Origin: an uncultured Aliiroseovarius sp.
GTDB lineage: Bacteria > Pseudomonadota > Alphaproteobacteria > Rhodobacterales > Rhodobacteraceae
Length of the DNA: 64,000 nucleotides
Direction: 5' to 3'
Assembly: GCF_947497285.1 (NCBI RefSeq)
Contig: NZ_CANMFT010000006.1
Location: forward strand, 62,001 to 126,000
Shown here: positions 41,786-63,615 of the stretch, piece after piece
Numbering within the stretch: position 1 is the stretch's first letter
How the letters are laid out: the number at the start of each line of letters is the position of its first letter
The notes under the pieces: generated by a model
The model's input: the letters and a program-made list of their open reading frames with translations, nothing else
Database searches by the model: none
Told to the model about the DNA's origin: nothing
Position numbers and translations under genes: made by a program

Positions 41786-43143
41786 TCCGGACGAAGCTTG
41801 CGAAGTTGAAGGGCGATCAGGTCGCCGCGCGCCTTTTGCGCAATTTGAAGTGGATCGTCTCGTCACAGGTCGCAATGGCTATTCTGGGCATGGTATCGCT
41901 TGCCGTTGCGGCGCGTGCTTTGGGGGCTGCCGGGCTTGGCGCGCTTGCCTTGATCGAGGCCTTCGCCCGCATCATCGCGCGTCTTGTCCATCTGGAACCG
42001 TGGCAAGCGGTCATCCATCATGGCAGCGCCGCGCTTGAAAACAAGGATCAGGGTCGTTTTGCGCGACTGATCGGCTTGTCGGTCCTGCTGGACATCGCTG
42101 GCGGTGTTTTGGCGGCGGTCGTCGTGTTGGCGCTTGCGCCCATGCTTGCCCCCGTTATGGGGTTGGAGGGGCAGCCCGCCACCTATCTGACGCTGGGCGC
42201 TTTGGCTGTGCTTGTTTCCTTGCGCGCGACCGGCATCGCGCTGTTGCGCCTGTATGATCGGTTTGACGTGCTGGCCAAGATCGACACGGCCACCGCGGCA
42301 TTCCGTGCGATCTTGTCAGTCATCGCCTACCTGTTGGGGGGCGATCTTTTGCATTTCGTCGCCATTTTCATCGCCTTCAGCCTCGTTGAAGGGCTGGCCG
42401 CCTATCTCTTTGGTCGCCGCGAGATGAAACGTCATGGCCAGACGATGACCCTGTCTGGCATGCAAGCTATGCTGACCGCCAATCCGGGGTTTCTGCGCCT
42501 CATGTGGAACTCCAATCTGGCGGTGATCCTGCGCCAGACCACACAACGGCTGGATGTCGTGATCCTGGCGACGTTGGTGGCCCCTGTTTATGTCGGTCAC
42601 TACCACATTGCGCGCCGGTGCGGTGAAGCCGCGATCCGGCTGGGGCGCCCGATCAAGCAAGTGGTGTTTCCCGAATTCGCACGTTTTGCGGCGCGCGGCG
42701 AATACCAGAAAATCAGCAAGACAGCGACGTCGATCAGCCTTGGGTTCACCGCGGTTTTGGTGGCCGGATTGCTGCCGACCCTGTGGTTCATCGAGCCCCT
42801 CGTCACCAGCATTTTCGGACCCGATTTCGCGGCCGCAACAACGGTCGTGTCAGTCCAAGCCATTGCAGTTGCACTGTTTTTGGCCGGCGTCATTCTTGGG
42901 CCGGTGCTATTGAGCCTTGACGCAGACCGCGGGCTTATGTGGACGGGGGTGGTCACAGCGGCGCTATTTTTCGTGCTGCTTTATCCGTTGGTGTCCATGT
43001 TTGGCGTGACCGGTGCGGCGTTGACGCACCTTATTTGCAATAGCCTGTGGCTGATCGCCTGTATATGGTTGACCCACCGTGCCTTGCGCGCGAAAGCCAC
43101 GCGGCCCGCCGCCAACGCCTCCGAGCAGGAGGAGCCTGTATGA
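41782..43143 (+). CDS. Polysaccharide flippase (Wzx / MOP superfamily)
   Basis: A 453-residue membrane protein with about 12-14 helices and the oligosaccharide flippase pattern (IVSSQVAMAILGMVSLAVAA; RQTTQRLDVVILATL). It should flip undecaprenyl-diphosphate-linked repeat units to the periplasm. The ATG overlaps the lyase TGA by four bases, and the stop region carries the ribosome site of the polymerase gene. Confidence 0.88.
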   Translation: MIRTKLAKLKGDQVAARLLRNLKWIVSSQVAMAILGMVSLAVAARALGAAGLGALALIEAFARIIARLVHLEPWQAVIHHGSAALENKDQGRFARLIGLSVLLDIAGGVLAAVVVLALAPMLAPVMGLEGQPATYLTLGALAVLVSLRATGIALLRLYDRFDVLAKIDTATAAFRAILSVIAYLLGGDLLHFVAIFIAFSLVEGLAAYLFGRREMKRHGQTMTLSGMQAMLTANPGFLRLMWNSNLAVILRQTTQRLDVVILATLVAPVYVGHYHIARRCGEAAIRLGRPIKQVVFPEFARFAARGEYQKISKTATSISLGFTAVLVAGLLPTLWFIEPLVTSIFGPDFAAATTVVSVQAIAVALFLAGVILGPVLLSLDADRGLMWTGVVTAALFFVLLYPLVSMFGVTGAALTHLICNSLWLIACIWLTHRALRAKATRPAANASEQEEPV

Positions 43144-44492
43144 AACAGAACCCACATCGCCACCACCATCACCATCACCACCACCATCGCACGCCGGACC
43201 TGCGCCACAGGTCGGCACGGTTTGATCCCTTTGGATTGGCGGCCGCAGGATTGCGAACACCCGAGGGGCTGTTGGTCGCCGCAGCGGTCGTTCTGGCGCC
43301 AATGAACCACATACGTCTCAGCGGGGTTTACATCACCGCGTCCGACATCGTGGCGCTCGCCGCTTTTATTCTGATGTTGGCAAAAGGAAGCGTGCCGATC
43401 CGCTTTTTCGGCCCGGCAACGGCATTCTGGGGTCTGTCCTTCATTGCCTTTGCGGGCGGTATGACCATGAGCTCGGTCATAAACGGTGACCCGGCTGCTT
43501 TGCCCAACACGCTTGCGCAATACAGCTATTCCTTGCTCGTGCTGCCAATGATCCTTGGCGGTCGCTCCTATGCGCAGACCTTGGCGCTGATCAAGCTGCT
43601 GATCGCGGCCTATGTGTTCGTCATGTTATTTGGCGCTTATGTCGTCCATTTCGTGGACAATCCCAACCGGATGTTGGTGTCGGGCAACGGGCGGATGCGG
43701 TCGCTGATCCAGCGCGAAAACGAAACGGCGGTGCATGGCGCGATCGCGATTGTTCTGGTGCTTGGGCTTTATAAGCTGGGCGCGATGCGGGCACGTTCGG
43801 TTCTGCTCTGCATTCCCCCGCTGATCTATGGCATCATGCTGACCGGATCGGTGTCGGGGCTGTTGGCCACGTTCCTTGGTGTCACGCTGCTGGTCTTGAT
43901 CGTCGGGCCCATTCGGCACATCCCGATCTCGGCTGCGATCGTGGCAGTTGTCGTCGTCATCCTGCTGGCGTTCGGTGATATCTTCCTGCCCGAAATCTTC
44001 CGCAACCGGGTGCTGGACCCGCTGCTGAACCGTGGCCTGGTGGGTGCGGGAACGTTCTCGGATCGGGCGTTACTGATTCAAGAGGCCATGGCGATCATGA
44101 AGGATACGGTGTTTCTTGGCTTGGGCGTGGAACAGTTCCGCGAATACAGCGCCCACAACGCGGCTGTACACAACAATTATCTCGCGGCCTTTGTCGAAGG
44201 CGGTCTGATCTCGCTTCTGGGTTTGATCGGGTTCTTCCTGTCAGCCCTGACACTGGTGTGGGCGGCAATCGTTTCGCGGGTCAATCGACAGGTCTGGGCA
44301 ATGACCTTGGTTGTGCTGTTGATCTACGCGGTCGCCTTCAACATGTTCCCCACCTTCTATGCCCGTTTCTGGAACGTGCCGTGGATCTTGCTGCTATCCC
44401 TGACAGCATCGCTGCTGACGCCCTTGCGCCACAAAGACCAGCCAATACTGCCACACCCATCCCCAACCCTGAAAAGGAGAGCCCGCTCATGA
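43140..44492 (+). CDS. O-antigen ligase/polymerase-like protein (Wzy/ExoQ type) with N-terminal poly-His
   Basis: A 450-residue protein with about ten or more helices and the large periplasmic loop of the Wzy/WaaL family (QRENETAVHGAIAI; GLGVEQFREYSAHNAAVHNN). In an Exo-type locus it is more likely the repeat-unit polymerase than a ligase. The ATG at 43140 follows GGAGGAG and overlaps the flippase stop (ATGA). The N-terminal cytoplasmic tail contains nine consecutive His (positions 8-16, after MKQNPHR), coded by mixed CAC and CAT. This could bind Zn, Ni or Cu. Confidence 0.88.
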   Translation: MKQNPHRHHHHHHHHHRTPDLRHRSARFDPFGLAAAGLRTPEGLLVAAAVVLAPMNHIRLSGVYITASDIVALAAFILMLAKGSVPIRFFGPATAFWGLSFIAFAGGMTMSSVINGDPAALPNTLAQYSYSLLVLPMILGGRSYAQTLALIKLLIAAYVFVMLFGAYVVHFVDNPNRMLVSGNGRMRSLIQRENETAVHGAIAIVLVLGLYKLGAMRARSVLLCIPPLIYGIMLTGSVSGLLATFLGVTLLVLIVGPIRHIPISAAIVAVVVVILLAFGDIFLPEIFRNRVLDPLLNRGLVGAGTFSDRALLIQEAMAIMKDTVFLGLGVEQFREYSAHNAAVHNNYLAAFVEGGLISLLGLIGFFLSALTLVWAAIVSRVNRQVWAMTLVVLLIYAVAFNMFPTFYARFWNVPWILLLSLTASLLTPLRHKDQPILPHPSPTLKRRARS

Positions 44493-50441: not shown

Positions 50442-51682
50442 GGCAGACGGCCACGCCAATAGCCTCGCAACTGGACGTGACAAACGGCAATGTCAAAGGG
50501 TCGACCAAGCGCGCTGTGCTGATTGGCAGCCTTGGCTGGTCCTTGGTGAATTTCCGTCTGGACCTGATGCGCCGCCTGCAAGCCAACGGCTTTGAGGTGT
50601 TGGCTGTTGCCGCAGATATCGACGAGGACACAGCCGCCCAGCTTAACAGTCACGGCATTCGCCACCGCACCGTGCCGATGGATCGCACCGGCACCAATCC
50701 GCTGCGCGACCTGCAAACGTTGTGGGCGTTAACAGCGCTTCTGCGACGCGAAAAACCGGACCTCGTCATCTCGTATACGATGAAGCCGAATGTCTATGGC
50801 AGCCTTGCGGCCCAATTGGCGCGCGTTCCGGCGCGCTTTGCTCTGTTCACCGGGCTTGGCTATGCGTTTATGGAGGCCGCCCCGACCGGGCGTCGCAAGA
50901 AGGTGCGCGATCTGTCAATTCTGTTGCACCGCGTGGCGCTGCGCCGGCTGCACGGCGCGTTCTGTTACAATGCGGCAGACCGTGGCGACATCCGGCGTTT
51001 TCGCCTGATCCCCGACAGCGTGCCCCTGCATGACGTGCCCGGATCTGGCGTGGACACGACGCGCTTTGCAGCGACCCCTGTGCCCAAGGGCAAGATCAGG
51101 TTCCTCTTTGTGGGACGACTGTTGCGCAGCAAGGGGCTTCAAACACTCGGCGATGCCGCGGCGCTGTTGCGCGCGCAAGGTCGCGACTGTGACATTGAAA
51201 TTTTGGGACCGGCAGACAGCAACCCCGACGCGATCGACACCGCAACGCTTGACGACTGGCAAGCGCGTGGTCTGGTCACCTGGCTGGGAGAGACGCGCGA
51301 TGTGCGTCCTTTCCTGCAGCGGTGCAGCGTCTTTGTCTTGCCGACACAGCTGCGCGAGGGCATTCCGCGTTCGATCCTTGAAGCCATGGCCAGTGGGCGC
51401 GCTGTCATCACGACAGACGCCCCCGGCTGCGGCGAGGCCATCCAGAACGGCGTGACCGGGATGGTTGTGCCACAAGGTGACGCGAAAGCCCTTGCGCAGA
51501 CGATGGCACAGTTCATTGACGATCCGTCACTGGCTGACACCATGGGACAAGCCGCGCGGAAGCTGGCCTGCAGCACCTATGACGTGCACCGGGTAAACTC
51601 GATCCTGATGCAGCATATGGGCGTGGAGCACCAAAACGCGGACACCGAAACCCCGCCTGCCACAGCTGAGGTCGCTTTGTGA
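50426..51682 (+). CDS. Glycosyltransferase family 4, PglA-like
   Basis: A 418-residue GT-B transferase whose N-terminal half (VLIGSLGWSLVNFRLDLMRR; SYTMKPNVYGSLAAQL; FTGLGYAFM) resembles PglA/CapM-type enzymes. Those add the second sugar to an undecaprenyl-diphosphate amino sugar. The donor motif is GIPRSILEAMASGRAVITTD. The ATG follows GGAGCAG and overlaps the dehydratase gene by 16 bp. Confidence 0.87.
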   Translation: MGRGIRQTATPIASQLDVTNGNVKGSTKRAVLIGSLGWSLVNFRLDLMRRLQANGFEVLAVAADIDEDTAAQLNSHGIRHRTVPMDRTGTNPLRDLQTLWALTALLRREKPDLVISYTMKPNVYGSLAAQLARVPARFALFTGLGYAFMEAAPTGRRKKVRDLSILLHRVALRRLHGAFCYNAADRGDIRRFRLIPDSVPLHDVPGSGVDTTRFAATPVPKGKIRFLFVGRLLRSKGLQTLGDAAALLRAQGRDCDIEILGPADSNPDAIDTATLDDWQARGLVTWLGETRDVRPFLQRCSVFVLPTQLREGIPRSILEAMASGRAVITTDAPGCGEAIQNGVTGMVVPQGDAKALAQTMAQFIDDPSLADTMGQAARKLACSTYDVHRVNSILMQHMGVEHQNADTETPPATAEVAL

Positions 51683-52134
51683 TGACCGATGCCCCGCTTT
51701 CACCGGACACCGCGCGCCCCGGCCCAGCGACTGCGCCGGCCGGGTCAAAGCATTCAAGACGCATCCTGCGCTTCCTGTTGGCGGGTGTGGCGAACACCGC
51801 GTTTGGGTATGCCCTTTATGCCTTGTTGGTGGTGATCGGCTTGCACCCACAGGTCGCGCTGGCGCTGCAATTTGCCATTGGCGTCGTCTGGAACCACACC
51901 CTGCACGGTCGTTTCGTCTTCGGAACCAAGGGTTACGGGCGGTTTCCCCACTATGTCGCGGCTTACGTGGCAGTGTATCTGTTCAACGCAGCGCTGCTTT
52001 ATCTGCTGATCGGCACCGGGATCGGGCCGTATCTGGCGCAGGGGCTTGCGCTTGCTCCGACGGTCGTCCTGTCTTACTTGCTTGTGTCGCTGGCCCTGAA
52101 CGTGCCCCTGCGCGCGAAAGGCGGCACGGTATGA
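51682..52134 (+). CDS. gtrA: GtrA-family membrane protein
   Basis: A 150-residue protein with four helices, and the GtrA pattern FLLAGVANTAFGYALYALLV and WNHTLHGRFVF. GtrA proteins are thought to flip undecaprenyl-phosphate-linked monosaccharides made by a GtrB enzyme. It is coupled to the preceding GT4 gene (TGATG) and overlaps the GT-C gene. A GtrB-like GT2 lies at 60.4 kb. Confidence 0.87.
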   Translation: MTDAPLSPDTARPGPATAPAGSKHSRRILRFLLAGVANTAFGYALYALLVVIGLHPQVALALQFAIGVVWNHTLHGRFVFGTKGYGRFPHYVAAYVAVYLFNAALLYLLIGTGIGPYLAQGLALAPTVVLSYLLVSLALNVPLRAKGGTV

Positions 52135-53789
52135 GCCTTCTGGAAGTTCACGCCATCAACGAGGCCAAGGCCAAGCCGCCCGCCAACGCCAGCCGCCCCG
52201 CCACCTCGCGCGTCACAAAGTGGCTTGCAGCACTTGGCTTCGCGCTTTTGTTCGCCGCCATCTATGGGCGCCTGATGGGCTATGGCCTGCGCCGTGACGA
52301 AATGCTGTTCGTGCCACCGGCCGTCTTGCTGCCAGACCTTCAGCTTTATGGCGACTATTTCTACAACCACGTGCCGTATTCAGCTTGGTATTTCAAAGCC
52401 ATGGCCTTGATTTTCGGCAGTGGCGGCTTGCTGTTTTCCACCCGACTGGGCATCTTCTTTGCTTGGGTCGGGCTGGCTGCGGCTATGGGCTGGACCATGT
52501 TGCGGCTGTCGGGGTCTATCCGCATGGCAGCGTTTGGTGTCATCTCTGTTTTGACCAGCCACGCCTTGATGGACGGGCCCGGCATGGCGGCAACCAACAA
52601 CCTGCTGCAACTTCCTTTCGCACTTTTTGGCATGGGGCTGTTCCTTGTCGAGGTCAAAGGCGCCACACTGAGACCCGCAACACTTGTGTTGTCCGGTGTT
52701 ATGCTGTCGGTCGCGACAGGTATGAAGGTCAGCTCTGTCGCTTTCATCCCGCCCATTGCCATTGCCGCTTTCTTGCTGCCCGCAGCCCTGCCCTTTTCGG
52801 CACGCCTGACCCGTGTTGTCTTGCCCGTGCTGGCCGGTGGGTTGATCGGGGCATTGCCGCTTTTCTGGCTTCTGCTGTCTGACCCCGACTTGTTTTTGGC
52901 CCATATCATGAAGTTCCACGTCGGGCCTCACGTCACATATTGGGAGGCAAACAAGCTGTCAGAGCCCGATCTTGCGATGGGATTGGGCCAGAAGCTTCAA
53001 CTCGCCTATGGCGTCTGGCTGCAAGGGGCTGCGTTGATTGTCGCTCTGGTCATCTTGGCATTGGCATGGATGGGGCGCACTGCGGCAGTGGCCCGGACAA
53101 AGGGCAGATGGTCGGATCGGTCAGCCCTTGGCTTGATCCTCGTTGTTCTTGCCACCTTGGTGACCACTGCGGGGATGAGCCTGACCCCGACCCCCGGCTT
53201 TTCGCAATACTACATCGCACCCTTGGTGTGCCTGCCCGTGCTGGCCGCGTTGATCTATGACGCCTTGCCACCTGCGACACGCGCGCAAAGCTGGCCGCTT
53301 TTGTCGGCGGCGACGGCCATGTTGGTGCTGATTGCCGTGCCATGGCTGGCCCCGGACATGCGCAAGACCCTGCGCCCTGGCATGACGACGCCTGCGAAAA
53401 TCGAACGGGGCGCCGCAGCCCTGCAAGACAGTATCGCGCAACTTCGCCCGGCCGGATCGAAGGTCGCCACCTTCCTGCCGATCTATCCGCTGGAAGCCGG
53501 TCTGTCCGTCTATCCCGAGTTCGCGACCGGCCAGTTTGCCTATCGCATAGCACCCTATACCGACCCGGACCTTGCCCGTTTTTACGTGATGGCCGGTCCC
53601 GATGACATCGGTGCCCTTTTCGATCGCGACCCACCGCAAGCGATCCTGATCGGCTATGAACCGGCGCTGGAAGCACCTTTGCGTGACTACGCGCTGACAC
53701 ACGGCTATCGTAAGGTGTCAGTCCCGCATCTGGACAACCGATACGGGCAGGGCGAAGTGTATTTTAACATCGGAGGGCAAGAGAAATGA
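52131..53789 (+). CDS. GT-C membrane glycosyltransferase (GT39/ArnT-like)
   Basis: A 552-residue protein with about ten helices. The first periplasmic loop has the acidic pair of GT-C enzymes in GYGLRRDEMLF, and a soluble C-terminal domain begins at about residue 415. GT-C enzymes use polyprenyl-phosphate sugars as donors in the periplasm. With GtrA before it and a GtrB-like enzyme downstream, it is the likely third component (GtrC role). It starts by ATGA overlap. Confidence 0.85.
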   Translation: MSLLEVHAINEAKAKPPANASRPATSRVTKWLAALGFALLFAAIYGRLMGYGLRRDEMLFVPPAVLLPDLQLYGDYFYNHVPYSAWYFKAMALIFGSGGLLFSTRLGIFFAWVGLAAAMGWTMLRLSGSIRMAAFGVISVLTSHALMDGPGMAATNNLLQLPFALFGMGLFLVEVKGATLRPATLVLSGVMLSVATGMKVSSVAFIPPIAIAAFLLPAALPFSARLTRVVLPVLAGGLIGALPLFWLLLSDPDLFLAHIMKFHVGPHVTYWEANKLSEPDLAMGLGQKLQLAYGVWLQGAALIVALVILALAWMGRTAAVARTKGRWSDRSALGLILVVLATLVTTAGMSLTPTPGFSQYYIAPLVCLPVLAALIYDALPPATRAQSWPLLSAATAMLVLIAVPWLAPDMRKTLRPGMTTPAKIERGAAALQDSIAQLRPAGSKVATFLPIYPLEAGLSVYPEFATGQFAYRIAPYTDPDLARFYVMAGPDDIGALFDRDPPQAILIGYEPALEAPLRDYALTHGYRKVSVPHLDNRYGQGEVYFNIGGQEK

Positions 53790-53902
53790 CAAACGCCCTT
53801 TTGACGAAATTTGAACTGCAATTTCGGACCTGCGTGGTTGGGCCAAGACGCCTTGCCAACTTGCGCCGCAATTGCCCAAATCATTCTCAGAAAGGGGAGT
53901 AA
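53786..53902 (+). CDS. Candidate 38-codon microprotein or coupling ORF
   Basis: An ATG at 53786 overlaps the GT-C stop (AATGA) and has GGAGGG eight bases upstream. The frame runs 38 codons (MTNALLTKFELQFRTCVVGP onward) to a TAA two bases before the rfbF ATG. The product is basic, with two Cys. It also contains the inverted repeat CGAAATT-N8-AATTTCG at 53805-53826. It may be a real microprotein or only serve to couple translation. No homologue is known to me. Confidence 0.35.
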   Translation: MTNALLTKFELQFRTCVVGPRRLANLRRNCPNHSQKGE

Positions 53903-53904
53903 CT

Positions 53905-54714
53905 ATGCAGACATTGCTGTTGGCGGGTGGACTTGGTTCACGGCTTGCCGAGGAAACTGTCACGATTCCCAAACCGATGGTCGAAGTCGGCGGCCGCCCG
54001 ATCATCACCCGCGTGATGGATATCTACAGCCATTTTGGACACAAGGATTTCATTGTGGCTGCGGGCTACAAAGCGGTTATTTTGAAACAGTTTTTTGCCA
54101 ACTACCACCTGATTGCCAACAACATCACGGTGTCGCTTGATACTGGCAAGATGGAACTGGTGCCGTCAGCACCGGGGGGGTGGAATGTCTCGGTGGTGGA
54201 CACCGGGCCGCACACGATGACCAGCGGTCGCATTCGGCGCCTGAAGGAATGGCTGAACCCCAATGAACCGTTCATGGTGACCTATTCCGATGGTCTGGGA
54301 AATATCGACATCAACGCGCTGCTCGACTTTCACAAATCGCACGGCAAGCTGGCGACAGTCACTGCGGTGCAGCCGCCTGCGCGCTTTGGCAACATCGAAC
54401 TGAACGGCGACCGGGTCGAGGCATTCACCGAAAAGGTGCGCCGGCGCGACACCTGGATCAACGGTGGCTATTTCGTCTTTGAACCCGAAGTCATGGACTA
54501 TTTCGTCGATGACATGGAGCCGCTGGAACAGTCGCCCCTGACGCAGATGGCGCAGGATTGCGAACTGATGGCCTATCGCCACGAAGGGTTCTGGCATCCG
54601 ATGGATACAGTGCGCGACCGCAACACGCTGGACGCGTTGTGCGAAGACGAAACACCCCCTTGGATGCGTTTCAACGAAGACCTGCCGAACGATGTAACGG
54701 CACTGGCGATCTGA
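53905..54714 (+). CDS. rfbF: Glucose-1-phosphate cytidylyltransferase
   Basis: A 269-residue nucleotidyltransferase with LLAGGLGSRLAEET and IPKPMVEVGGRPI at the N-terminus. The RfbF-specific blocks DFIVAAGYKAVILKQFFANY and WINGGYFVFEP follow. It makes CDP-glucose from CTP and glucose-1-phosphate. GGGGAGTAACT precedes the ATG at 53905. It opens the CDP-sugar pathway that continues with rfbG. Confidence 0.93.
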   Translation: MQTLLLAGGLGSRLAEETVTIPKPMVEVGGRPIITRVMDIYSHFGHKDFIVAAGYKAVILKQFFANYHLIANNITVSLDTGKMELVPSAPGGWNVSVVDTGPHTMTSGRIRRLKEWLNPNEPFMVTYSDGLGNIDINALLDFHKSHGKLATVTAVQPPARFGNIELNGDRVEAFTEKVRRRDTWINGGYFVFEPEVMDYFVDDMEPLEQSPLTQMAQDCELMAYRHEGFWHPMDTVRDRNTLDALCEDETPPWMRFNEDLPNDVTALAI

Positions 54715-54722
54715 GGCAGACC

Positions 54723-55856
54723 ATGGCTGGAACAGTTGCTTCGAACTTTGACGGCGCCTTTGCCGGTTGCCGCGTCCTTGTCACCGGGCATACCGGTTTC
54801 AAGGGCGGCTGGCTGACGACGTGGTTGCGCCAGCTCGGGGCCGAGGTCGTCGGTATCGCCCTCCCGCCCGAGCCCGGTCCCTCGTTTTGCGAGGTCACGG
54901 CGCTGACACAGGGTATGGACAGCCGAATGATCGACATTCGCGATGCCCAGCGCCTTGCATCCGAGGCCGCCGATATTGACGCGGATCTGGTCATTCACAT
55001 GGCCGCACAGCCCTTTGTGCGCCGATCCTATCGCGACCCCGCGGAAACTTTCGCCACGAACGTGTCGGGCACGGCGCATGTGCTGGACCTGGCGCGGTCG
55101 ATGACATCGCTGCGCGGTGTCATCGTGGTGACCAGCGACAAATGCTATGAAAACAACGAATGGACCTGGGGATATCGTGAAAACGATCCGATGGGGGGAT
55201 CAGACCCCTACAGCGCCTCGAAAGGGTGCACAGAACTGGTGACGCAGGCCTATCAACGATCGTTCTTTGCGGACCCGAAAGGGCCACAACTGGCTTCGGT
55301 GCGCGCGGGCAACGTTTTTGGCGGCGGCGACTGGGGCGAGGATCGGCTGATCCCGGACATGGTGCGCGCTGTGCAGGCTGGCACCATCGTCGACATCCGC
55401 AGTCCCGACAGCATCCGTCCGTGGCAACACGTGCTGGAGCCTTTGTCGGGCTATCTGGCGCTGGCGGCAAAGCTTCTAACGGAGGGCGCACCTTTTGCGG
55501 GGCCGTGGAATTTCGGGCCGGACGTGTCTGGAACAGTCACAGTGCGCGACCTTGCCGGTTTGGTGCAGACGGCATGGGGGCTGGGGGGGCCGCAGTTTCA
55601 GTTTGCAGATGTGCAATCCGCAAAAGGCGGTCTGCACGAGGCTGGCATCCTGCGCCTTGACAGCACCAAAGCTCAAACTGGCCTTGGCTGGCGCCCACAG
55701 CTTAGCTTACCACAAGCCGTTGATTTAACATCGAAATGGTACAAATCTCACTTGGACGGTCAGGACATGACCGCGCTTACCAAATCACAGATCAATCACT
55801 ATAGCGACCTGATGTCAGGCGCGAAAACACAAGGGTCGGACGTCGCAGCGCAATAG
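54723..55856 (+). CDS. rfbG: CDP-glucose 4,6-dehydratase
   Basis: A 377-residue extended SDR with NAD motif VTGHTGFKGGW and TSDKCYENNEWTWGYRE. Tyr163 and Lys167 in DPYSASKGCTE are typical of RfbG. It converts CDP-glucose to CDP-4-keto-6-deoxyglucose. The start at 54723 is 8 bp after rfbF and is where the family begins. Confidence 0.93.
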   Translation: MAGTVASNFDGAFAGCRVLVTGHTGFKGGWLTTWLRQLGAEVVGIALPPEPGPSFCEVTALTQGMDSRMIDIRDAQRLASEAADIDADLVIHMAAQPFVRRSYRDPAETFATNVSGTAHVLDLARSMTSLRGVIVVTSDKCYENNEWTWGYRENDPMGGSDPYSASKGCTELVTQAYQRSFFADPKGPQLASVRAGNVFGGGDWGEDRLIPDMVRAVQAGTIVDIRSPDSIRPWQHVLEPLSGYLALAAKLLTEGAPFAGPWNFGPDVSGTVTVRDLAGLVQTAWGLGGPQFQFADVQSAKGGLHEAGILRLDSTKAQTGLGWRPQLSLPQAVDLTSKWYKSHLDGQDMTALTKSQINHYSDLMSGAKTQGSDVAAQ

Positions 55857-55881: not shown

Positions 55882-57084
55882 ATGAGAGTGAATTACGGCC
55901 AAACCGTTCACGGGCAAGAAGAAATCGATGCCGTGGTCGAAGTTCTGAAGACCTCGACGCAGATGGGCCCGCGCGTGCGCAAGATGCAAGAACGCGTGGC
56001 TGCGCTGTTTGCCAAGCAACACGGGGTGATGGTGAACTCCGGGTCATCTGCCAACTATCTGGCGGTCGAGATCCTTGACCTGCCCAAAGGCAGCGAAGTG
56101 ATCACCCCGGCCCTGACCTTTGCCACAACCGTGGCACCTTTGGTTCGTCAGGGGCTGATCCCGGCTTTCGTTGACGTGGCCGAGGGCACTTACAACATCG
56201 ACGTGGACGCGATCGAACGGATGATCACGCCCAACACCAGCGCGGTCATGATCCCATCCCTGATCGGCAACCTGCCGGATTGGCGGCGCATTCGCGAGAT
56301 CGCCGACGCCCATGGGCTGAAGGTCATCGAAGACAGCGCAGATACGCTTGGCGCGACAATCGAAGGCAAAAGCACGGGGCTTTATTCCGATGTCTCGACC
56401 ACCAGCTTTTATGGCTCGCACGTGATCAACGGGGCCGGCAATGGCGGCATGCTTTGCGTCAATGACGAAGAACTTGGCCGCAAGGCGCTGTTGCTCCGGT
56501 CCTGGGGGCGCAGTTCTTCGCTGTTTGTCGAAAGCGAAAGCATCGAAAACCGGTTCGGCGTGAAGGTCGATGGCATCGACTATGACGCCAAGTTCCTGTT
56601 CGAGGATCTGGGCTATAACCTTGAACCTTCGGAAATCAGCGCGGCGTTTGGTTTGGTGCAACTGGACAAGCTGGAGCACAATATCCGCGAACGCGAAAAG
56701 AATTTCGCAGCCCACAACGCGTTCTTCAAGGATTACGCAGATTGGTTCATCCTGCCCAACCAGCTTGAAGGCGGGCGCACGGGGTGGTTGGCCTATCCGC
56801 TGACCCTGCGCGAAGGTGCACCCTTCACGCGGCGCGACATGCAGATCCACCTGGAAACCGCCGGCATCCAGACCCGCCCGGTATTTACCGGCAATATTCT
56901 GCGCCAGCCCGCAATGAAGAACGTCACAAGCAAGACAGATCCCGCCGGCTATGCGCAGTCGGATGCCGTCATGCGCGGCGGTGTGCTTTTGGCGCTGCAT
57001 CATGGATTGACGGATGATCACATGACTTACATGCACGAAACCTTCGCAGGTTTTGCCAAGACCAAACGCAAAGCTGCCGAATGA
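55882..57084 (+). CDS. RfbH-like PLP/PMP-dependent dehydratase lacking Lys and lacking the Fe-S cysteines
   Basis: A 400-residue DegT-fold protein in the position of rfbH. The usual Schiff-base Lys is His180 (TTSFYGSHVINGAGNGG), the hallmark of 3-dehydratases such as RfbH/E1 and ColD. Asp151 (EDSAD) is kept. RfbH normally binds a [2Fe-2S] cluster through a Cys-rich stretch after the WGR motif. Here that stretch is WGRSSSLFVESESIENRF with no Cys, and the whole protein has only Cys192. No E3-type ferredoxin reductase gene is present nearby. It may work like ColD, without Fe-S, or catalyse something else on CDP-4-keto-6-deoxyglucose. AAAGGAGACAG precedes the start. Confidence 0.82.
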   Translation: MRVNYGQTVHGQEEIDAVVEVLKTSTQMGPRVRKMQERVAALFAKQHGVMVNSGSSANYLAVEILDLPKGSEVITPALTFATTVAPLVRQGLIPAFVDVAEGTYNIDVDAIERMITPNTSAVMIPSLIGNLPDWRRIREIADAHGLKVIEDSADTLGATIEGKSTGLYSDVSTTSFYGSHVINGAGNGGMLCVNDEELGRKALLLRSWGRSSSLFVESESIENRFGVKVDGIDYDAKFLFEDLGYNLEPSEISAAFGLVQLDKLEHNIREREKNFAAHNAFFKDYADWFILPNQLEGGRTGWLAYPLTLREGAPFTRRDMQIHLETAGIQTRPVFTGNILRQPAMKNVTSKTDPAGYAQSDAVMRGGVLLALHHGLTDDHMTYMHETFAGFAKTKRKAAE

Positions 57085-58187
57085 GCGTGCACGCGCCCCT
57101 GTCCCCCATAACGCCCGCGTGGCTACCGCAAGGCGGTGGTCACAATGCGGGTATTCATGGGCTAAGGGGCGTGGCTGCCGCCATGGTGCTGTTCGCGCAC
57201 ATCATCGGCGGGACGGCCGAACATGTGTATTCCGCCAGCCCGGGCTATCTGGCAGTTGCTGAACCGCTTTGGAATTTCGGCACGTTTTTCGTCTACCTGT
57301 TTTTCGCGATAAGCGGCTACGTGATCTTGCCCAGCGCGTTCCGCTATAGCCCCGGCGATTTCGCCTTTCGCCGTATGGTCCGCATCTATCCGCTGTTTCT
57401 GGCCTGCAGCCTCGTGTTTATTGTCGGAAACCTCATCTGGAACCTCGAACCCGAGGTCAACAATCCAACGGCCATTTTCTATGCCTTGACGTTCACAAAC
57501 CTGCTTGTCGGCGCAAAGCAACTGACGCCAAATGCGTGGAGCCTGTCCTACGAGATGATGTTCTACGCGCTGGCGGCGGCCGGCGCTTATGCGGTGCTGC
57601 AACGGCGGTTCGGTCTGGGTCTGGTCGTTGCGGTGGCATCTGCTGCCTTCGTTGCGCTCTATCCCAAGGCGATCTATTTCACTGTCGGAATTATGGTTTT
57701 TGCGATGAACAGCGAAGGGATGACGCGCAAAATACCGCTGCGCCCGTTGGCTGAGCTGGCGGCGGCTATTGGCCTTGCGGTCGCGGCATCTCAGTCGCAT
57801 TTCGACTTCCACCCCGGAGAGCTGAGCCAGCCTATCACCCTGACCTGCCTTACTTTGACAGGTATCTATTTCTTGCTCGCGGTTGAACCCGATAGCCTGA
57901 CCGCCCGCGCCCTATCTGCCCGTTGGGCACAGTATCTGGGCACCATCAGCTATAGCCTCTATCTTGTGCATCCCTACGTCTACATGCCTATGCGCGTGCT
58001 GTTTCAGCGGTTTGACCTGTTTGGCGACAATGTCGTCCTCAGCGTCGCAATCTTTGGAACCGTGACGGCGCTGGCCTCGGTCGCCCTTGCGCAATTCTCG
58101 TTCGTTATCTTTGAAAAGTTCCCGCAAAATCTGGCCAAAAGCTGGGCTAAGCGACCCAAGTTCATTCAAAAGGAAACCCGCCCATGA
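57081..58187 (+). CDS. Acyltransferase family 3 (OafA-like O-acyltransferase)
   Basis: A 368-residue integral membrane acyltransferase with about ten helices. The family His is in IHGLRGVAAAMVLFAHIIGG, and the conserved arginine block is FAFRRMVRIYPLFLACS. It probably O-acetylates a sugar of the repeat. It overlaps its neighbours by ATGA on both sides. Confidence 0.88.
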   Translation: MSVHAPLSPITPAWLPQGGGHNAGIHGLRGVAAAMVLFAHIIGGTAEHVYSASPGYLAVAEPLWNFGTFFVYLFFAISGYVILPSAFRYSPGDFAFRRMVRIYPLFLACSLVFIVGNLIWNLEPEVNNPTAIFYALTFTNLLVGAKQLTPNAWSLSYEMMFYALAAAGAYAVLQRRFGLGLVVAVASAAFVALYPKAIYFTVGIMVFAMNSEGMTRKIPLRPLAELAAAIGLAVAASQSHFDFHPGELSQPITLTCLTLTGIYFLLAVEPDSLTARALSARWAQYLGTISYSLYLVHPYVYMPMRVLFQRFDLFGDNVVLSVAIFGTVTALASVALAQFSFVIFEKFPQNLAKSWAKRPKFIQKETRP

Positions 58188-59428
58188 CAGTGCATTCCAA
58201 GCCATCCTCGACCCTGTCGAAATGCCGGACCTGCGGGTCCGAGAACCTGTTTTTGTTCCTTCCGATGGGGGCTCATCCGCCTGCCAACATGTTTGCCAAA
58301 ACGGCAGATCCCGCGCAGAAACAACCCGCTTTTGATCTGAACACGCAGGCCTGTCTTGAGTGTGGCTTGATCCAGGTCGCCGATCAGGTTCCGGACGCCT
58401 TTTTTGAGGACTACCTCTATGTCCCATCTGGTGCGGCAACGATGCACGAACACTTTGCCGGGCTCGCCGCCGTCGCGTGTGAAAAAGCAGGTGGCGGGCT
58501 GATCGTGGATGTCGGGTGCAATGACGGCTTGATGCTGGGCCATGCGGTCAAGGCCGGGGCGCGCGTGTTGGGGATCGACCCCGCCGCAAACATCGCCCCC
58601 CTTGCGCGCGAACGCGGGGTCGAAGTGTTGACCGGGTATTTCAACCCCGAAACGGCGCAAACCGTGCGTGACGAGAAGGGACCCGCACAGGTCATCACCA
58701 CGACCAACACCTTCAACCATATCGACGACCTGCACGGGTTTCTTGATGCGGTTCTGATCCTTCTGGACGACGATGGCACCTTCGTGATCGAAGTGCCATG
58801 GGGCAAGAAAATCGTCGAAACCAACCAGTTCGACAATGTCTATCACGAGCACATGTCCGAGCTGAGCCTTCTGTCCATCGTGCGGTTGGGGCAGTCACGG
58901 GGCATGGATGTTGTGGATGTGACCAAACTGCCGGTGCATGGCGGGTCGATGCGGGTGTTCATGCAACGTGCCTCACTTGGCAAAACGCCTGCGCCCATCG
59001 TCGCTGAGATGTTGGAGGAAGAGCGCGCAGCCGGTCTGACTGAACGCGCGACCTACGAAGAATTCGCGCGTCGCGTGGACGAATTGGGGGCCAAGCTGAA
59101 AACCATGCTGGCCGAGATCAAGGCAGACGGCAAAACCGTTGCCGGCTATGGCGCCCCTGCCAAGGGCAACACGCTTCTGAACTATTTCGGCATCGGGGCC
59201 GAAACGCTGGACTTTGTCGTCGACAAGAACCCGCTGAAGCAGGGTCTGTTCACGCCGGGAACCCGATTGCCGATCCTGTCACCCGAGGCGGTGGCCGAAC
59301 GCGCGCCCGATTATCTGCTGGTCCTTGCGTGGAACTTCTTTGACGAAATCCGCGAACAGATGTCCGATTTCGAAGCCCGCGGCGGCAAGTTCATCGTGCC
59401 GTTGCCGATGCCACGCATCGTGCCATAG
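58184..59428 (+). CDS. Sugar C-methyltransferase (TylC3/TcaB9-like)
   Basis: A 414-residue enzyme with the three-part layout of deoxysugar C-methyltransferases. First is a zinc-binding N-terminal domain (Cys14, Cys17, Cys57, Cys60), then a SAM domain with VDVGCNDGLML (108-118) and NVYHEHMSELSLLS. The C-terminal domain contains GYGAPAKGNTLLNYF. Such enzymes methylate carbon 3 or 5 of nucleotide 4-keto sugars, giving branched sugars. Here the substrate should be the CDP-4-keto sugar made by rfbG and the RfbH-like protein. Confidence 0.9.
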   Translation: MTVHSKPSSTLSKCRTCGSENLFLFLPMGAHPPANMFAKTADPAQKQPAFDLNTQACLECGLIQVADQVPDAFFEDYLYVPSGAATMHEHFAGLAAVACEKAGGGLIVDVGCNDGLMLGHAVKAGARVLGIDPAANIAPLARERGVEVLTGYFNPETAQTVRDEKGPAQVITTTNTFNHIDDLHGFLDAVLILLDDDGTFVIEVPWGKKIVETNQFDNVYHEHMSELSLLSIVRLGQSRGMDVVDVTKLPVHGGSMRVFMQRASLGKTPAPIVAEMLEEERAAGLTERATYEEFARRVDELGAKLKTMLAEIKADGKTVAGYGAPAKGNTLLNYFGIGAETLDFVVDKNPLKQGLFTPGTRLPILSPEAVAERAPDYLLVLAWNFFDEIREQMSDFEARGGKFIVPLPMPRIVP

Positions 59429-59436
59429 GAGATCAC

Positions 59437-60399
59437 ATGGCGCGTGTCCTGATCACTGGTGCAACGGGGTTCATTGGCTCTCACCTCGCGCGGGCGTGCG
59501 TGGTGCGGGGCGATGACGTTACGCTTGTGGTCCGGCCAAGCTCGGATCTGGCGCGGGTGTCTGACCTTAGCGCGCAATTGCAAATCCACCGGGTTCTTCT
59601 GACCGATCAACCTGCGATGCACGCCTGTATGAAGGATGCGCAACCCGAGGTGATTTTTCATCTTGGTGCGCGCACCCGGTTTACCAAGTCTCAGGACCTT
59701 TCGGATTTCGCAACCAGCATTGACGACAACCTGAAGACGCTGCTTGGCATCGTTTCGGCGGCAGCGACGTTGCCAGCCCCCCCAAGTGCGTTCGTCCGCG
59801 CAGGCACCATTGCGGAATACGGTTCAGTCGCGCCACCCTATCGCGAGGACATGCGCGAAGCCCCCAACAGTGCCTATGGTGCGTCGCTTTTGGCAGGCAC
59901 CCAGTTTCTGGAGGCTTTGCGGCCGCGACTCCCCTTCGCGACGTCGACAGCACGGCTTGCCCTGACCTATGGGCCGGGGCAATCGCGCGACTTTCTGTTG
60001 CCGTCGCTGATCCATACATGTTTGAATAATGAGCCTTTCATCGTGGCGCGCCCTGAAGACCGGCGCGACCTGATCCACGTGTCTGACGTCGTCAGCGCGC
60101 TCTTACGACTGGCTGATCTGGAGCATGCGGCGCCCGGCCTTGTGAATATTGGCACCGGTCGCGCACCAACGATGCGTGCCTTGGCCAAGCTTGTAATCAA
60201 CGCCACTGGCGCGTCACCTGATGTGATACGGTTCGGCGACCAGGAAGAAGATGATGTGGTGGAATTGCGCATCGACCCCACGCGCCAGCGACAGCAGTTG
60301 CAGTGGTCGCCGCGCATTGATCTTGAAGAAGGCGTGGCCATGACCGTTGACGACGCCCGCGCCACACGACCAAACGGCACGAACAGGAGGTCAGCATGA
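59437..60399 (+). CDS. NAD-dependent epimerase/dehydratase-like SDR with catalytic Lys replaced
   Basis: A 320-residue extended SDR. The cofactor motif is VLITGATGFIGSHLARA, and Thr124 is in RAGTIAEYGS. The active-site block is NSAYGASLLAGTQ: Tyr147 is kept, but the Lys four residues on is Leu151. It lies after the C-methyltransferase, where a 4-ketoreductase or epimerase is expected. Without the Lys the activity is uncertain: the protein may be inactive, structural, or use a different residue. It overlaps the GT2 start by ATGA. Confidence 0.82.
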   Translation: MARVLITGATGFIGSHLARACVVRGDDVTLVVRPSSDLARVSDLSAQLQIHRVLLTDQPAMHACMKDAQPEVIFHLGARTRFTKSQDLSDFATSIDDNLKTLLGIVSAAATLPAPPSAFVRAGTIAEYGSVAPPYREDMREAPNSAYGASLLAGTQFLEALRPRLPFATSTARLALTYGPGQSRDFLLPSLIHTCLNNEPFIVARPEDRRDLIHVSDVVSALLRLADLEHAAPGLVNIGTGRAPTMRALAKLVINATGASPDVIRFGDQEEDDVVELRIDPTRQRQQLQWSPRIDLEEGVAMTVDDARATRPNGTNRRSA

Positions 60400-61433
60400 C
60401 CACGCTTGTATCCATCCTCATCCCCGCTCTGAACGAAGAGATGAACGTGCGGCGTGCCTATGATCGCGTCGTTGCCGTGTTTGATGCGCTGCCGGACTAC
60501 ACGCCAGAGATCATCTTCACCGACAATCATTCCGACGACAAAACATTCGATATCCTGTCCGAAATCGCGCAAGCCGATGACCGGGTGCGGGTCATTCGCT
60601 TTTCCCGCAATGTCGGGTATCAGGCGTCGGTCTTGACCGCCTATCGCTCGGCGCAGGGGGCATGTTCGATCCAGATCGACTGTGATCTGCAAGACCCGCC
60701 AGAGCTGATCCCCGAGATGTTGGACAAATGGCGTCAAGGCTATCACGTGGTATATGGCATCCGGCGCAGCCTGCCGGATGGGCCATTGGTCGCGGCTGCG
60801 CGACGGGCGTTTTACACGCTGATCGACTGGATCAGCACCGACGATCTGCCGCGCAATGCAGGCGAATTTCGTCTGACCGACCGACGTATTCTGGACGAAC
60901 TGCGCAGGGTCGATGACCGCTCGCCTTATGTGCGCGGGTTGATCAGCGGGATGGGGTTCAACCAGATCGGATTTGAATACGACCGCGAAGCGCGGCTTGA
61001 AGGGACCTCGAAGTTTCCGTTTCGCGCGATGTTGGCATTGGCAGTCGATGGGTTGATCAACCATTCTCTGGTGCCTTTGCGGCTGGCCTCGTTGATCAGC
61101 TTGACGGTCGGGCTTCTGACCTTCCTTTTGATGATCGCCTATGTCATTGCGCGCGTCGTCTTTGGTCAGGACTGGCCAGCCGGTTTCGCCACGACCACTG
61201 TATTGCTTCTGTTGTCGATGACCCTGAACGCGATGTTTCTGGGCATCATGGGTGAATATGTCGGGCGAATATTCATTCAATCAAAAGATCTGCACCGCCC
61301 CCTGATCGAAGCCGAGCTAAACCAACCTGAACCCCGCGAGGATACGACCAAACCCCTGACACGCGAGGTCGATGTGCCTGCGCCTAATGCGGAGCTGACG
61401 GCGCAAAAAGACGCCGGTCACGCAGCGGAGTAA
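60396..61433 (+). CDS. gtrB: GT2 polyprenyl-phosphate glycosyltransferase (GtrB/DPM1-like)
   Basis: A 345-residue enzyme. The GT-A domain has SILIPALNEE, DNHSDD and DCDLQDPPELIPEM. Two C-terminal helices (about 225-250 and 265-290) follow, then a charged tail. This is the GtrB/DPM1 layout that makes undecaprenyl-phosphate-linked sugars. GGAGG precedes the ATG. Its position after the CDP-sugar genes suggests that the donor is the new CDP-deoxysugar, unlike the UDP-glucose of classical GtrB (inference). Confidence 0.86.
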   Translation: MTTLVSILIPALNEEMNVRRAYDRVVAVFDALPDYTPEIIFTDNHSDDKTFDILSEIAQADDRVRVIRFSRNVGYQASVLTAYRSAQGACSIQIDCDLQDPPELIPEMLDKWRQGYHVVYGIRRSLPDGPLVAAARRAFYTLIDWISTDDLPRNAGEFRLTDRRILDELRRVDDRSPYVRGLISGMGFNQIGFEYDREARLEGTSKFPFRAMLALAVDGLINHSLVPLRLASLISLTVGLLTFLLMIAYVIARVVFGQDWPAGFATTTVLLLLSMTLNAMFLGIMGEYVGRIFIQSKDLHRPLIEAELNQPEPREDTTKPLTREVDVPAPNAELTAQKDAGHAAE

Positions 61434-61437
61434 CACA

Positions 61438-62520
61438 TTGCGCGTATTGTTCATTCAGGGTGGTTTCGGGACGGGTGGGGCCGAAAAAATCGTCGCCATG
61501 ATCGCCAATCACCGGGCCGCGCATGGTGACCAGGTCGAGGTCGCCGGGATGCGTGCACCGCGGGACGGCTCGTATTATCGCTATTCGCCAGACGTGACGC
61601 TTCATGTGCTGGAACCGAACGTGCCGGCCAGCGAACCGGTCAGCCAGATAAAGCGGCTGAAAATGCTGCGGAAGTTGATCCGGGACAGAAAGCCGGATGT
61701 GGTCGTGTCATTTCTGACGAAGATCAATGTGCTGACACTTACGGCCGGGCTGGGAACCGGTATTCCGATTGTCATCTCTGAACGTAACAATCCGCGTGCG
61801 CAAAATAACCACCCATTGTGGCACACCGCGTCGATGACGCTCAGTCGCCGGGCGACGTCTGTTGTCACACTGACGGAACGGGGCCGCGACCAATTGCCTG
61901 CGAAAGTCCGCCACCGAACACGGGTCATACCCAACCCTTGCGTGCCCATCGAAGGCGCGCGCGCGCAAATCAACGGCGCAGCATCGCAGCTGGTCGCGGT
62001 GGGGCGGCTGGATTGGCAGAAGGGCTTTGATCTATTGCTGCATGCCGTCGCCCGGTTGCGCGACAGTCACCCGACCCTGTCCCTGACAATTTTCGGTGAA
62101 GGGCCAGAACGCAAGGCGTTGGAAGGCTTGCGGGCAGATCTGGGTCTGGAAGCCACGGTTGCGATGCCCGGCACCACCCAACGCCACGGCGCCTGGGTCA
62201 GCGAAGCAGACATCCTCGTCGTCACCTCACGCTACGAAGGGTTTTGCAATGTCGTCGCCGAGGCCACCCTGTCCGGCGTCCCGATCATATCTTTCGATTG
62301 CGAGTTTGGGCCGCGCGAAATGATCCGCCACGAGGTCAATGGCCTGTTGGTTCAGACTGGTGATATCGACGGCATGGCCGACAACCTGTCGCGCTTGATC
62401 AACGATACGCAGTTGCGCGCCCGCATGTCGGCCGCGTCATATCTGAATGTCGAATACCTTGACCCTGATCGCATACTGAAATCCTGGGATGCAGTGATCA
62501 ACGACGCGGTGGAGGTGTAG
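61438..62520 (+). CDS. Glycosyltransferase family 4 (first of a tandem pair)
   Basis: A 360-residue GT-B transferase starting at TTG 61438, with GGAG eight bases upstream. Motifs: FIQGGFGTGGAEKIVAMI, VSFLTKINVLTL, VISERNNPRAQ, VAVGRLDWQKGFDLLL and GFCNVVAEATLSGVP. It is clearly paralogous to the next gene. The sugar is unknown; an N-acetylgalactosamine-type transferase is a common annotation for this group. Confidence 0.86.
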   Translation: MRVLFIQGGFGTGGAEKIVAMIANHRAAHGDQVEVAGMRAPRDGSYYRYSPDVTLHVLEPNVPASEPVSQIKRLKMLRKLIRDRKPDVVVSFLTKINVLTLTAGLGTGIPIVISERNNPRAQNNHPLWHTASMTLSRRATSVVTLTERGRDQLPAKVRHRTRVIPNPCVPIEGARAQINGAASQLVAVGRLDWQKGFDLLLHAVARLRDSHPTLSLTIFGEGPERKALEGLRADLGLEATVAMPGTTQRHGAWVSEADILVVTSRYEGFCNVVAEATLSGVPIISFDCEFGPREMIRHEVNGLLVQTGDIDGMADNLSRLINDTQLRARMSAASYLNVEYLDPDRILKSWDAVINDAVEV

Positions 62521-62523
62521 ACG

Positions 62524-63615
62524 ATGCGCTTGCTGTTGATACATGGAGGGTTCGGGGCCGGAGGCGCTGAAAAGATCGTTAGCATGATTGCGACGCACCG
62601 TTTGGAGATGGGCGACGAGGTTTCTGTGCTCGGGTTCGATATGCCCGATGGCGGCTCTTATTTTCCTTACCCCGAGACGGCGAAACTGATCGTTGCGAAA
62701 CAGGGTTCAGGTCTGGCGCCGCTGTCCAAACTGCAAAGCATTCAACACGCCATCAGGCAGTCGAAACCGGATCTGGTGCTGTCGTTTCTGACCAAGATCA
62801 ATGTGCTGTCCTTGTTGGCCGCCATGCGGGGGGGACCACCGGTTGTCATCTCGGAACGCAACAACCCGCGGGCGCAGAAAGCGAACCCTGTCTGGCGACA
62901 TGCGCAGAATGTTCTGGCCCGACGCGCTGCGGCCGTGGTGATGCAAACCGAACGGGCGAGGTGCGACCTACCGCGCGCGATCGCCAATCGGGCGACGGTG
63001 ATCCCCAACCCCTGCGCGCCCTACACCAACCTGACCGTGGCACCTGACGCCAACGGGCTTCGGCTTGCAGCTGTCGGAAGGCTGGACCAGCAAAAAGGCT
63101 TTGATCTTTTGCTGAAAGCAATGCCAGCGGTGCGCGACACCTATCCCAAAGTCCGGTTGACGATCCAGGGTGAAGGGCCAGAACGTCCGCGCCTCGAGGC
63201 ATTGCGAGACAAGCTCGGGCTGGCTGAAATCGTGTCACTGCCCGGTGCAAGCCCCGCCCCCGGCGCATGGTTGCAAACGGCAGATATACTTGTTGTCCCG
63301 TCCCGGTTCGAGGGGTTCCCCAACGTTATCGCCGAGGCTGCCGTATCAGGCCTGCCCGTCATCGCATTCGATTGCGACTATGGACCACGCGAGATCATCA
63401 CAGACGGGAAAAACGGGCTGTTGGTGGCACCGAACGACATTCCTGCCCTGTCACGCAGCATTCTGCGCTTGATTGGAGATCCAGCGTTGCGCGCGCAGAT
63501 GGCGAAAGCCAGTGGACCGACGCGCGCGGCATTGGCCCCCGATCAGGTTCTGGGCACGTGGGATCAGGTGATTGGGAGCGTCATGAAAGAAGAAACCCAG
63601 TTGCTAGATGCTTGA
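62524..63615 (+). CDS. Glycosyltransferase family 4 (second of a tandem pair)
   Basis: A 363-residue GT-B transferase sharing blocks with its neighbour: LIHGGFGAGGAEKIVSMI, LSFLTKINVLSL, VISERNNPRAQ, AVGRLDQQKGFDLLL and GFPNVIAEAAVSGLP. The pair arose by tandem duplication and has diverged. It starts 3 bp after the first copy. The last 12 bp overlap the convergent HAD gene. Confidence 0.86.
   Translation: MRLLLIHGGFGAGGAEKIVSMIATHRLEMGDEVSVLGFDMPDGGSYFPYPETAKLIVAKQGSGLAPLSKLQSIQHAIRQSKPDLVLSFLTKINVLSLLAAMRGGPPVVISERNNPRAQKANPVWRHAQNVLARRAAAVVMQTERARCDLPRAIANRATVIPNPCAPYTNLTVAPDANGLRLAAVGRLDQQKGFDLLLKAMPAVRDTYPKVRLTIQGEGPERPRLEALRDKLGLAEIVSLPGASPAPGAWLQTADILVVPSRFEGFPNVIAEAAVSGLPVIAFDCDYGPREIITDGKNGLLVAPNDIPALSRSILRLIGDPALRAQMAKASGPTRAALAPDQVLGTWDQVIGSVMKEETQLLDA

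Follow-up and report, generated by a model that had tools for sequence, protein, structure and literature searches.

A predicted iron-sulfur-free, histidine-type sugar 3-dehydratase encoded in CDP-glucose gene clusters

The gene cluster and its histidine-type enzyme

The window, which is the whole 64,000-nucleotide stretch of Aliiroseovarius DNA that was analyzed, contains a run of forward-strand genes in the order rfbF, rfbG, predicted dehydratase, acyltransferase, C-methyltransferase, short-chain dehydrogenase/reductase (SDR), and family 2 glycosyltransferase (GT2). These genes are closely spaced, with several 4-base overlaps. The features of the cluster, and the residues of the central enzyme that bear on its function, are as follows.

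51679–52134, + strand: GtrA-type membrane protein (PF04138)
52131–53789, + strand: large protein, probably membrane-bound and possibly a GT-C type transferase, here given the working label ArnT-like; HMM searches gave no family above cut-off
53905–54714, + strand: rfbF, glucose-1-phosphate cytidylyltransferase (TIGR02623, 320.5 bits, cut-off 300.25); the listed ORF opens upstream at 53872
54720–55856, + strand: rfbG, CDP-glucose 4,6-dehydratase (TIGR02622, 446.5 bits, cut-off 278.45); the listed ORF opens upstream at 54558
55882–57084, + strand: predicted Fe-S-free His-type sugar 3-dehydratase of the DegT fold (from the ORF, a PDB sequence search, HMM scores, trees, and alignments)
56338–56340, + strand: codon of Ala153, in the column of the conserved second Cys of E1 in IEDCCD (alignments)
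56416–56421, + strand: Ser179-His180, the same pair as in ColD; Ala-His in 33 of 34 E1 rows (alignments)
56419–56421, + strand: codon of His180, which replaces the PLP lysine (translation and alignments)
56455–56457, + strand: codon of Cys192, the sole Cys of the 400-aa protein (translation)
56500–56556, + strand: residues 207–225 (SWGRSSSLFVESESIENRF), a loop with three Cys in E1 and with Ser212, Leu214, and Ile221 here (alignments)
57081–58187, + strand: acyltransferase (PF01757), with a 4-base overlap with the stop of the predicted dehydratase
58184–59428, + strand: SAM-dependent C-methyltransferase (Methyltransf_13/23/14 domains); best PDB match D-mycarose 3-C-methyltransferase, 4rv9
59437–60399, + strand: SDR (PF01370), candidate 4-ketoreductase
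60396–61433, + strand: GT2 glycosyltransferase, resembling polyprenyl-phosphate sugar transferases; the PgfS and PRK10714 HMMs both score far below cut-off

Elsewhere in the window, an ORF at 43047–44492 encodes about ten consecutive histidines close to its start. Adjacent and similar glycosyltransferases are encoded at 61438–62517 and 62524–63612, apparently from a tandem duplication.

The ORF at 55882–57084 (+) is single and uninterrupted and codes for 400 aa. The protein belongs to the DegT fold family (PF01041, 272.4 bits, cut-off 19.8) and scores below the cut-off of the RfbH model (NF011936, 303.3 bits versus 423). Its best match by sequence among solved structures is E1 (3bcx, 1.2e-62), followed by ColD (1.3e-47). 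An AlphaFold2 model built from a 52-row alignment (A2) has a mean pLDDT of 84.1 and a pTM of 0.84. Foldseek ranked E1 first for this model, followed with close scores by an archaeal sugar transaminase, ColD, and GDP-perosamine synthase; lysine-type sugar transaminases thus rank beside ColD in the fold search. Values of pLDDT fall below 50 at residues 209–215, 217–219, and 230–244, exactly the region of the E1 cysteine loop, so no geometry was taken from the model.

The standard example of C3 deoxygenation with an iron-sulfur cluster and a reductase that feeds it is E1; ColD provides a hydrolytic counterpart that acts on a GDP sugar. In alignments with the PDB sequences and with genomic homologs, His180 (TTSFYGSHVINGAGNGG) falls on the first His of PAHHIT in E1 and of SHHI in ColD. 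The four columns that hold the cluster cysteines of E1 are occupied by Ala153, Ser212, Leu214, and Ile221, and the motif WGRSSSLFVES spans residues 208–218.

Conservation and phylogenetic placement

Conservation was assessed in an 81-row alignment of this protein with the best 80 loci (L035–L114) of 369 relatives found. Ser179, His180, Val181, Ala153, and Ser212 are invariant in all 81 rows, and the four E1 cluster columns, each of which is Cys in 34/34 sampled E1-type proteins, are free of Cys throughout. His180 is also invariant in the 14 same-order orthologs of a second alignment (A1) and in the 52 rows of A2. Because it is constant across A1, A2, and the 81 rows, it is attributable neither to chance nor to sequence error. 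A lysine concealed by a sequencing error, one outcome that a sequence-only reading of this DNA had named as contrary to its account, was considered and ruled out by the 81/81 invariance. Lys occupies this column in all 18 sampled aminotransferase-type proteins, which are genomic and do not include perosamine synthases. That reading had also claimed that His180 replaces the PLP lysine and that a Ser-rich loop, with Cys192 as the only Cys, leaves the protein without Fe-S cysteines (0/4 cluster Cys); both claims hold. Its label "RfbH-type" is not retained, given the score of 303 bits against 423 and trees that place the family in a lineage of its own apart from E1.

Comparison of conserved columns gave a mixed pattern. 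Fifty-nine conserved family columns are common to E1, ColD, and a small set of ColD-related, Fe-S-free His-type proteins (HX), including N52–N58, D151, H180, N246, R332, and N338. Thirty match E1 but not ColD, including W208 and R210; 14 match ColD and HX but not E1, including S179, H373, and H374; and four more match ColD alone. The residue before the catalytic His is Ser in 11/11 ColD/HX rows and Ala in nearly all E1 rows. Peculiar to the family are Gly178, Val181 in place of a second His, a loop after the His that is one residue longer, and Asn187 in place of Glu. Changing S187 and H188 of ColD together reportedly gave an aminotransferase. The title of PDB entry 3gr9 reads ColD H188K S187N, with both residues of the Ser-His pair changed at once.

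A quick tree of 100 rows, with 37 from this family, 34 from E1, nine from ColD, and two from HX, resolved the four as separate groups and joined the family with E1 at a support of 81. A careful tree of 50 rows, to which distant members were added, supports the family with its distant members (99/98), E1 (15 rows, 100/100), and ColD/HX (100/99). It places the family outside E1 plus ColD at 92/83, relative to a distant aminotransferase outgroup that lacks GDP-perosamine synthase (lysine-type and the best outgroup) and with SpnQ absent from the rows. The approximately unbiased (AU) test rejected neither a sister position to ColD (P = 0.127) nor one to E1 (P = 0.156). These alignments and trees divide the His-type proteins into three lineages, with this family standing beside E1 and ColD as the third. 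The phylogeny that the sequence-only reading had proposed thus puts the enzyme inside neither the E1 nor the ColD clade and upholds it as a His-type protein, in a lineage of its own. Gain of the cluster in E1 and its loss in this family would both be compatible with the trees, and because the AU test rejects neither sister order, an RfbH that lost its cluster is one possible account.

The HX set comprises proteins of L129 (G491), L131 (G499), and L226 (7887–9149). They have the motif SFYYSHH or SFFFSHH together with EDCCE, lack the cluster loop, and branch with ColD in the tree. The archaeal HX-type protein adjoins gmd.

Gene context and predicted reaction

RfbF was matched in all 80 family loci, in 79 of them in the same orientation and no more than 4.5 kb away, and RfbG was matched in 78; in the other two (L112 and L113), RfbF is present and RfbG was not matched nearby. 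Matches were also obtained for the SDR (72 loci, at least one of which, L086, is a misplaced hit on rfbG), GT2 (75), the C-methyltransferase (55), the GtrA-type protein (27), and the acyltransferase (eight, of which five are co-oriented and no farther than 4.5 kb); a few of the 80 loci lie on short contigs. As controls, we used the stretches of 16 of the 34 E1-type proteins plus that of L222, which was met by chance. RfbF and RfbG were both present in 16 of these 17 stretches, with RfbF about 9 kb away in L165; L222 is a true four-Cys E1 with neither gene matched in 20 kb. RfbF was matched in none of nine ColD loci, where RfbG was matched once, weakly, at 26%, and the count for HX loci was 0 of 2. 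These RfbF and RfbG counts, set against the ColD and HX controls, indicate that the close clade, like E1, is associated with the CDP-glucose pathway.

A further neighbor is shared with E1 loci. Four gammaproteobacterial loci (L106, L108, L110, and L111) contain, in this order, rfbF, rfbG, the family enzyme, an SDR, and a ThDP enzyme, the last preceded in L106 by a Rieske-type gene. The best solved relative of the L106 ThDP enzyme is 8rph (1.9e-122), far ahead of acetolactate synthases, and the other three are 63%–65% identical to it. The 8rph protein is JanthE, a YerE-like enzyme (PMC12188165), and YerE catalyzes transfer of activated acetaldehyde to CDP-3,6-dideoxy-4-keto-D-glucose (PMC12247030). 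Homologs of the ThDP enzyme occur in six of the 18 E1/HX stretches, each time in one of the E1 type, and in four of 16 E1 loci (L164, L167, L168, and L174) one with 38%–40% identity lies together with a homolog of the same SDR 1–8 kb from E1. The fetched stretches of L106, L108, and L110–L113 yielded no further E1-type protein. The simplest account is that the family enzyme would do the job of E1 in L106, L108, L110, and L111. The YerE-like link is limited to four family loci and, for the E1 loci, to 38%–40% identity. A dehydroquinate (DHQ)-synthase-like gene follows the YerE-like enzyme in all four loci (L106, 13198–16859; L108, L110, and L111), so these loci may lead to a product other than yersiniose, perhaps a more elaborate sugar that is branched and carbocyclic.

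An E3-type reductase was searched for by tblastn with the E3-like protein of E1 locus L169, called E3 by its place and its ferredoxin-type motif. It matched none of the 80 family loci and two of 16 E1 stretches, its own included. In whole genomes at E ≤ 1e-50, matches occurred in 4/16 E1 genomes (source included) versus 0/14 family genomes (Fisher P = 0.10). Two family genomes have matches near 1e-30 that are probably general reductases, and the best match in the genome of the window is a 367-aa frame whose domains stand in the reverse order (1.4e-8). A scan for the ferredoxin-type reductase motif hit 10/80 family and 4/16 E1 loci, mostly by apparent chance, and missed the E3 of L164; tblastn was used instead. 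The argument from E3 absence made by the sequence-only reading is thereby extended to 80 family loci and 14 genomes, and it is weakened by the 12 of 16 E1 genomes that likewise have no match at E ≤ 1e-50. Because a good match is missing from the majority of sampled E1 loci and genomes as well, the absence is weak evidence that fits an Fe-S-free enzyme and proves little.

Together, these features suggest, with a probability of roughly 0.68, that the protein at 55882–57084 is a PMP-dependent CDP-4-keto-6-deoxyglucose 3-dehydratase that would act through ColD-like glutamate chemistry and would do without a [2Fe-2S] cluster or an E3-type reductase. C3 deoxygenation is favored over a different reaction by the context common to E1, including the YerE-like enzyme. 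A hydrolytic, ColD-like route is likeliest given the lack of cluster ligands and the Ser-His pair of ColD. The two options first put forward, a CDP-sugar enzyme with ColD-like chemistry or a different reaction, have thus moved apart: the His-type, Fe-S-free character, the CDP-sugar pathway, and the Ser-His pair speak for the former, and the latter is less favored.

In ColD, as a review describes, the PMP adduct loses the 3-OH and is hydrolyzed to PLP and an enamine, and glutamate renews PMP; in E1 and SpnQ, the cluster and a reductase reduce the PMP adduct (PMC8987622). Campylobacter jejuni C3-dehydratases of the ColD family, 62%–67% identical to two characterized ones, turn over with PLP and glutamate; 2-oxoglutarate is released, and one oxygen is incorporated from water (PMC10440746). 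By analogy with ColD, L-glutamate would turn PLP into PMP, which would condense with the C4 ketone made by RfbG. The conserved His180 would then remove the C4' proton as the 3-OH departs. Hydrolysis of the 3,4-unsaturated adduct would give PLP and an enamine sugar, which would tautomerize and lose ammonia to yield CDP-4-keto-3,6-dideoxyhexose. Both electrons would come from PMP, so a cluster would not be needed. Downstream genes would provide C-methylation where the methyltransferase is present, C4 reduction (SDR), and GT2 loading onto polyprenyl phosphate for a surface glycan. The chemistry could also differ from that of both ColD and E1, given the separate lineage and the distinct His loop (the extra residue, Val181, and Asn187).

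The enzyme combines traits of several known systems. With E1 (RfbH, AscC; CDP-6-deoxy-L-threo-D-glycero-4-hexulose-3-dehydrase, 3bcx), it shares the catalytic His, the WGR motif, and nearby rfbF and rfbG; unlike E1, it lacks the four Cys and the N-terminal extension, has Ser-His rather than Ala-His, and has one more residue in the His loop. With ColD (GDP-4-keto-6-deoxymannose 3-dehydratase, 2gms/3gr9), it shares the catalytic His, the lack of a cluster, the Ser before the His, and an HH pair near the C terminus, but the family sits in CDP-glucose gene sets, whereas RfbF is found in 0/9 ColD loci, and it forms a separate lineage. SpnQ (TDP-4-keto-2,6-dideoxyglucose 3-dehydratase), compared by its description in the review (PMC8987622), resembles it in the aminotransferase fold and in His-type C3 deoxygenation, predicted here, and differs in having a [2Fe-2S] cluster and a TDP sugar. 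The DegT/DnrJ/EryC1/StrS aminotransferases (GDP-perosamine synthase, 3bn1/3dr4) share its fold and PF01041; 18/18 sampled genomic aminotransferases, a sample outside the perosamine synthases, have Lys where all 81 family rows have His.

A literature search found no Fe-S-free CDP-4-keto-6-deoxyhexose 3-dehydratase; most subscription journals lay outside this search, which is hence no proof of absence. The review calls E1, ColD, and SpnQ well characterized and the enzymes of the urdamycin and ossamycin pathways identified only (PMC8987622). If the proposed activity is correct, making 3,6-dideoxyhexoses from CDP-4-keto-6-deoxyglucose would not require the cluster, and the question of why E1 has one would become testable. 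CDP-4-keto-3,6-dideoxyhexose and its branched derivatives would also become accessible by a simple route that uses no reductase and probably tolerates oxygen. More tentatively, and with odds clearly against the whole chain, a third lineage of B6-dependent deoxygenases may make CDP-4-keto-3,6-dideoxyhexose without a cluster in marine and soil alphaproteobacteria. Its ketone or enamine would pass to a TylCIII-like methyltransferase acting at C3, giving CDP-3-C-methyl-3,6-dideoxyhexose for transfer to polyprenyl phosphate and a surface glycan.

3-C-methyltransferases of known type act on a C3 that bears oxygen. The 3-C-methyltransferase-like neighbor could hint at retention of the 3-OH in some pathways, and a different PMP/PLP reaction on a CDP-4-keto sugar that retains O3, such as a C3 epimerization or isomerization preparing the substrate of the C-methyltransferase, is unlikely. 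The distinct His loop is in its favor, as is the affinity of the C-methyltransferase in 55/80 loci with sugar 3-C-methyltransferases, but the other 25 loci, a few of which are short contigs, lack that methyltransferase. The YerE-like neighbor of four loci also argues against it, as the best-known acceptor of that class is a 3,6-dideoxy-4-keto sugar, and E1, ColD, and SpnQ, the His-type relatives that the review calls well characterized, all remove O3 (PMC8987622).

Reductive 3-deoxygenation of the E1/SpnQ kind by an enzyme without its own cluster, with an external ferredoxin, flavodoxin, or flavin feeding the PMP adduct, appears quite improbable. It would accord with the E1-like gene context, with the 30 columns shared with E1 but not ColD (versus 14 with ColD and HX but not E1 and four with ColD alone), and with the use of generic ferredoxin or flavodoxin reductases by SpnQ (PMC8987622). 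The ligands through which electrons would enter are absent in 81/81 rows, however, the Ser-His pair is that of ColD, and an E3-like gene was found in 0/80 family loci, a count from tblastn with one E3 as the query that covers the E3 type only.

An aminotransferase, as RefSeq labels the protein, with another residue as the base, is very unlikely. Membership in PF01041, the product names in plasmid records, and the transamination by SpnQ without a reductase (PMC8987622) are consistent with it, but His in 81/81 rows stands against Lys in 18/18 sampled aminotransferases, and ColD and E1 gave no transamination where SpnQ did in the same account (PMC8987622). A Rieske-like cluster of two Cys and two His (C192, C372, H373, and H374) would draw on their high conservation (C192 in 80/81 rows, C372 in 78/81, and H373 and H374 in 81/81) but can be dismissed, as C372 is missing from the 55882–57084 protein itself and from L035 and L036, C192 is missing from L114, and cluster-free ColD also has H373 and H374.

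Distribution and database labels

In a sample of the order, 14 of 390 genomes (own included) encode an ortholog with at least 73% identity, and the next matches are at most 38% identical; 16 of these 24 weaker matches were examined and are E1-type or ColD-type. In the class sample, 11 of 385 genomes (own included) have a match at E ≤ 1e-130. Among 398 genomes of the phylum sample, a close member was found in the own genome only, and the other matches examined (n = 29) are E1-type (27) or HX-type (two). A profile search of genome contigs with alignment A1 recovered 369 stretches that encode a relative. The best 80, which were kept, come from roseobacters, sphingomonads, rhizobia, Parvularculaceae, a few Gammaproteobacteria including Legionella relatives, and one Flavobacteriales MAG, and the closest named relative among these best 80 of 369 is Aliiroseovarius (89%). 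The marine strain Roseibium aggregatum IAM 12614 (L045) is another carrier among them. A plasmid collection gave 26 records that match at 1e-60, including Roseibium, Leisingera, Ensifer, and Sinorhizobium. All 13 plasmid records with an annotated product say aminotransferase; if the dehydratase prediction is correct, this label would be corrected on a family with 369 relatives found, the best 80 of them examined here.

Distant members (43%–61% identity) have RfbF/RfbG nearby in three of 11 fetched loci, some of which are short contigs. Because they are mostly found apart from RfbF/RfbG and some have other His motifs, the CDP-sugar assignment is confined to the close clade, and the wider lineage beyond it may have other jobs. 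Altered His motifs (SFSIFHIITC, SFAMAHIITC, and SFSLSHIITA) occur in L220, L221, L223, and L224, which possibly act on another substrate. L220 and L221 are from the same class as the window; in both, an apparent GMC-type oxidoreductase gene adjoins and RfbF/RfbG were not matched nearby. L223 and L224 are Actinobacterial, on Rhodococcus and Embleya plasmids. The distant members of G980 and of one locus of G1053 adjoin a GMC-type oxidoreductase, as read from translation. One genome (G930) encodes both a distant family member (L213) and the four-Cys E1-type protein of L222. The weakly matching additional DegT proteins of L055, L084, and L102 are of other types.
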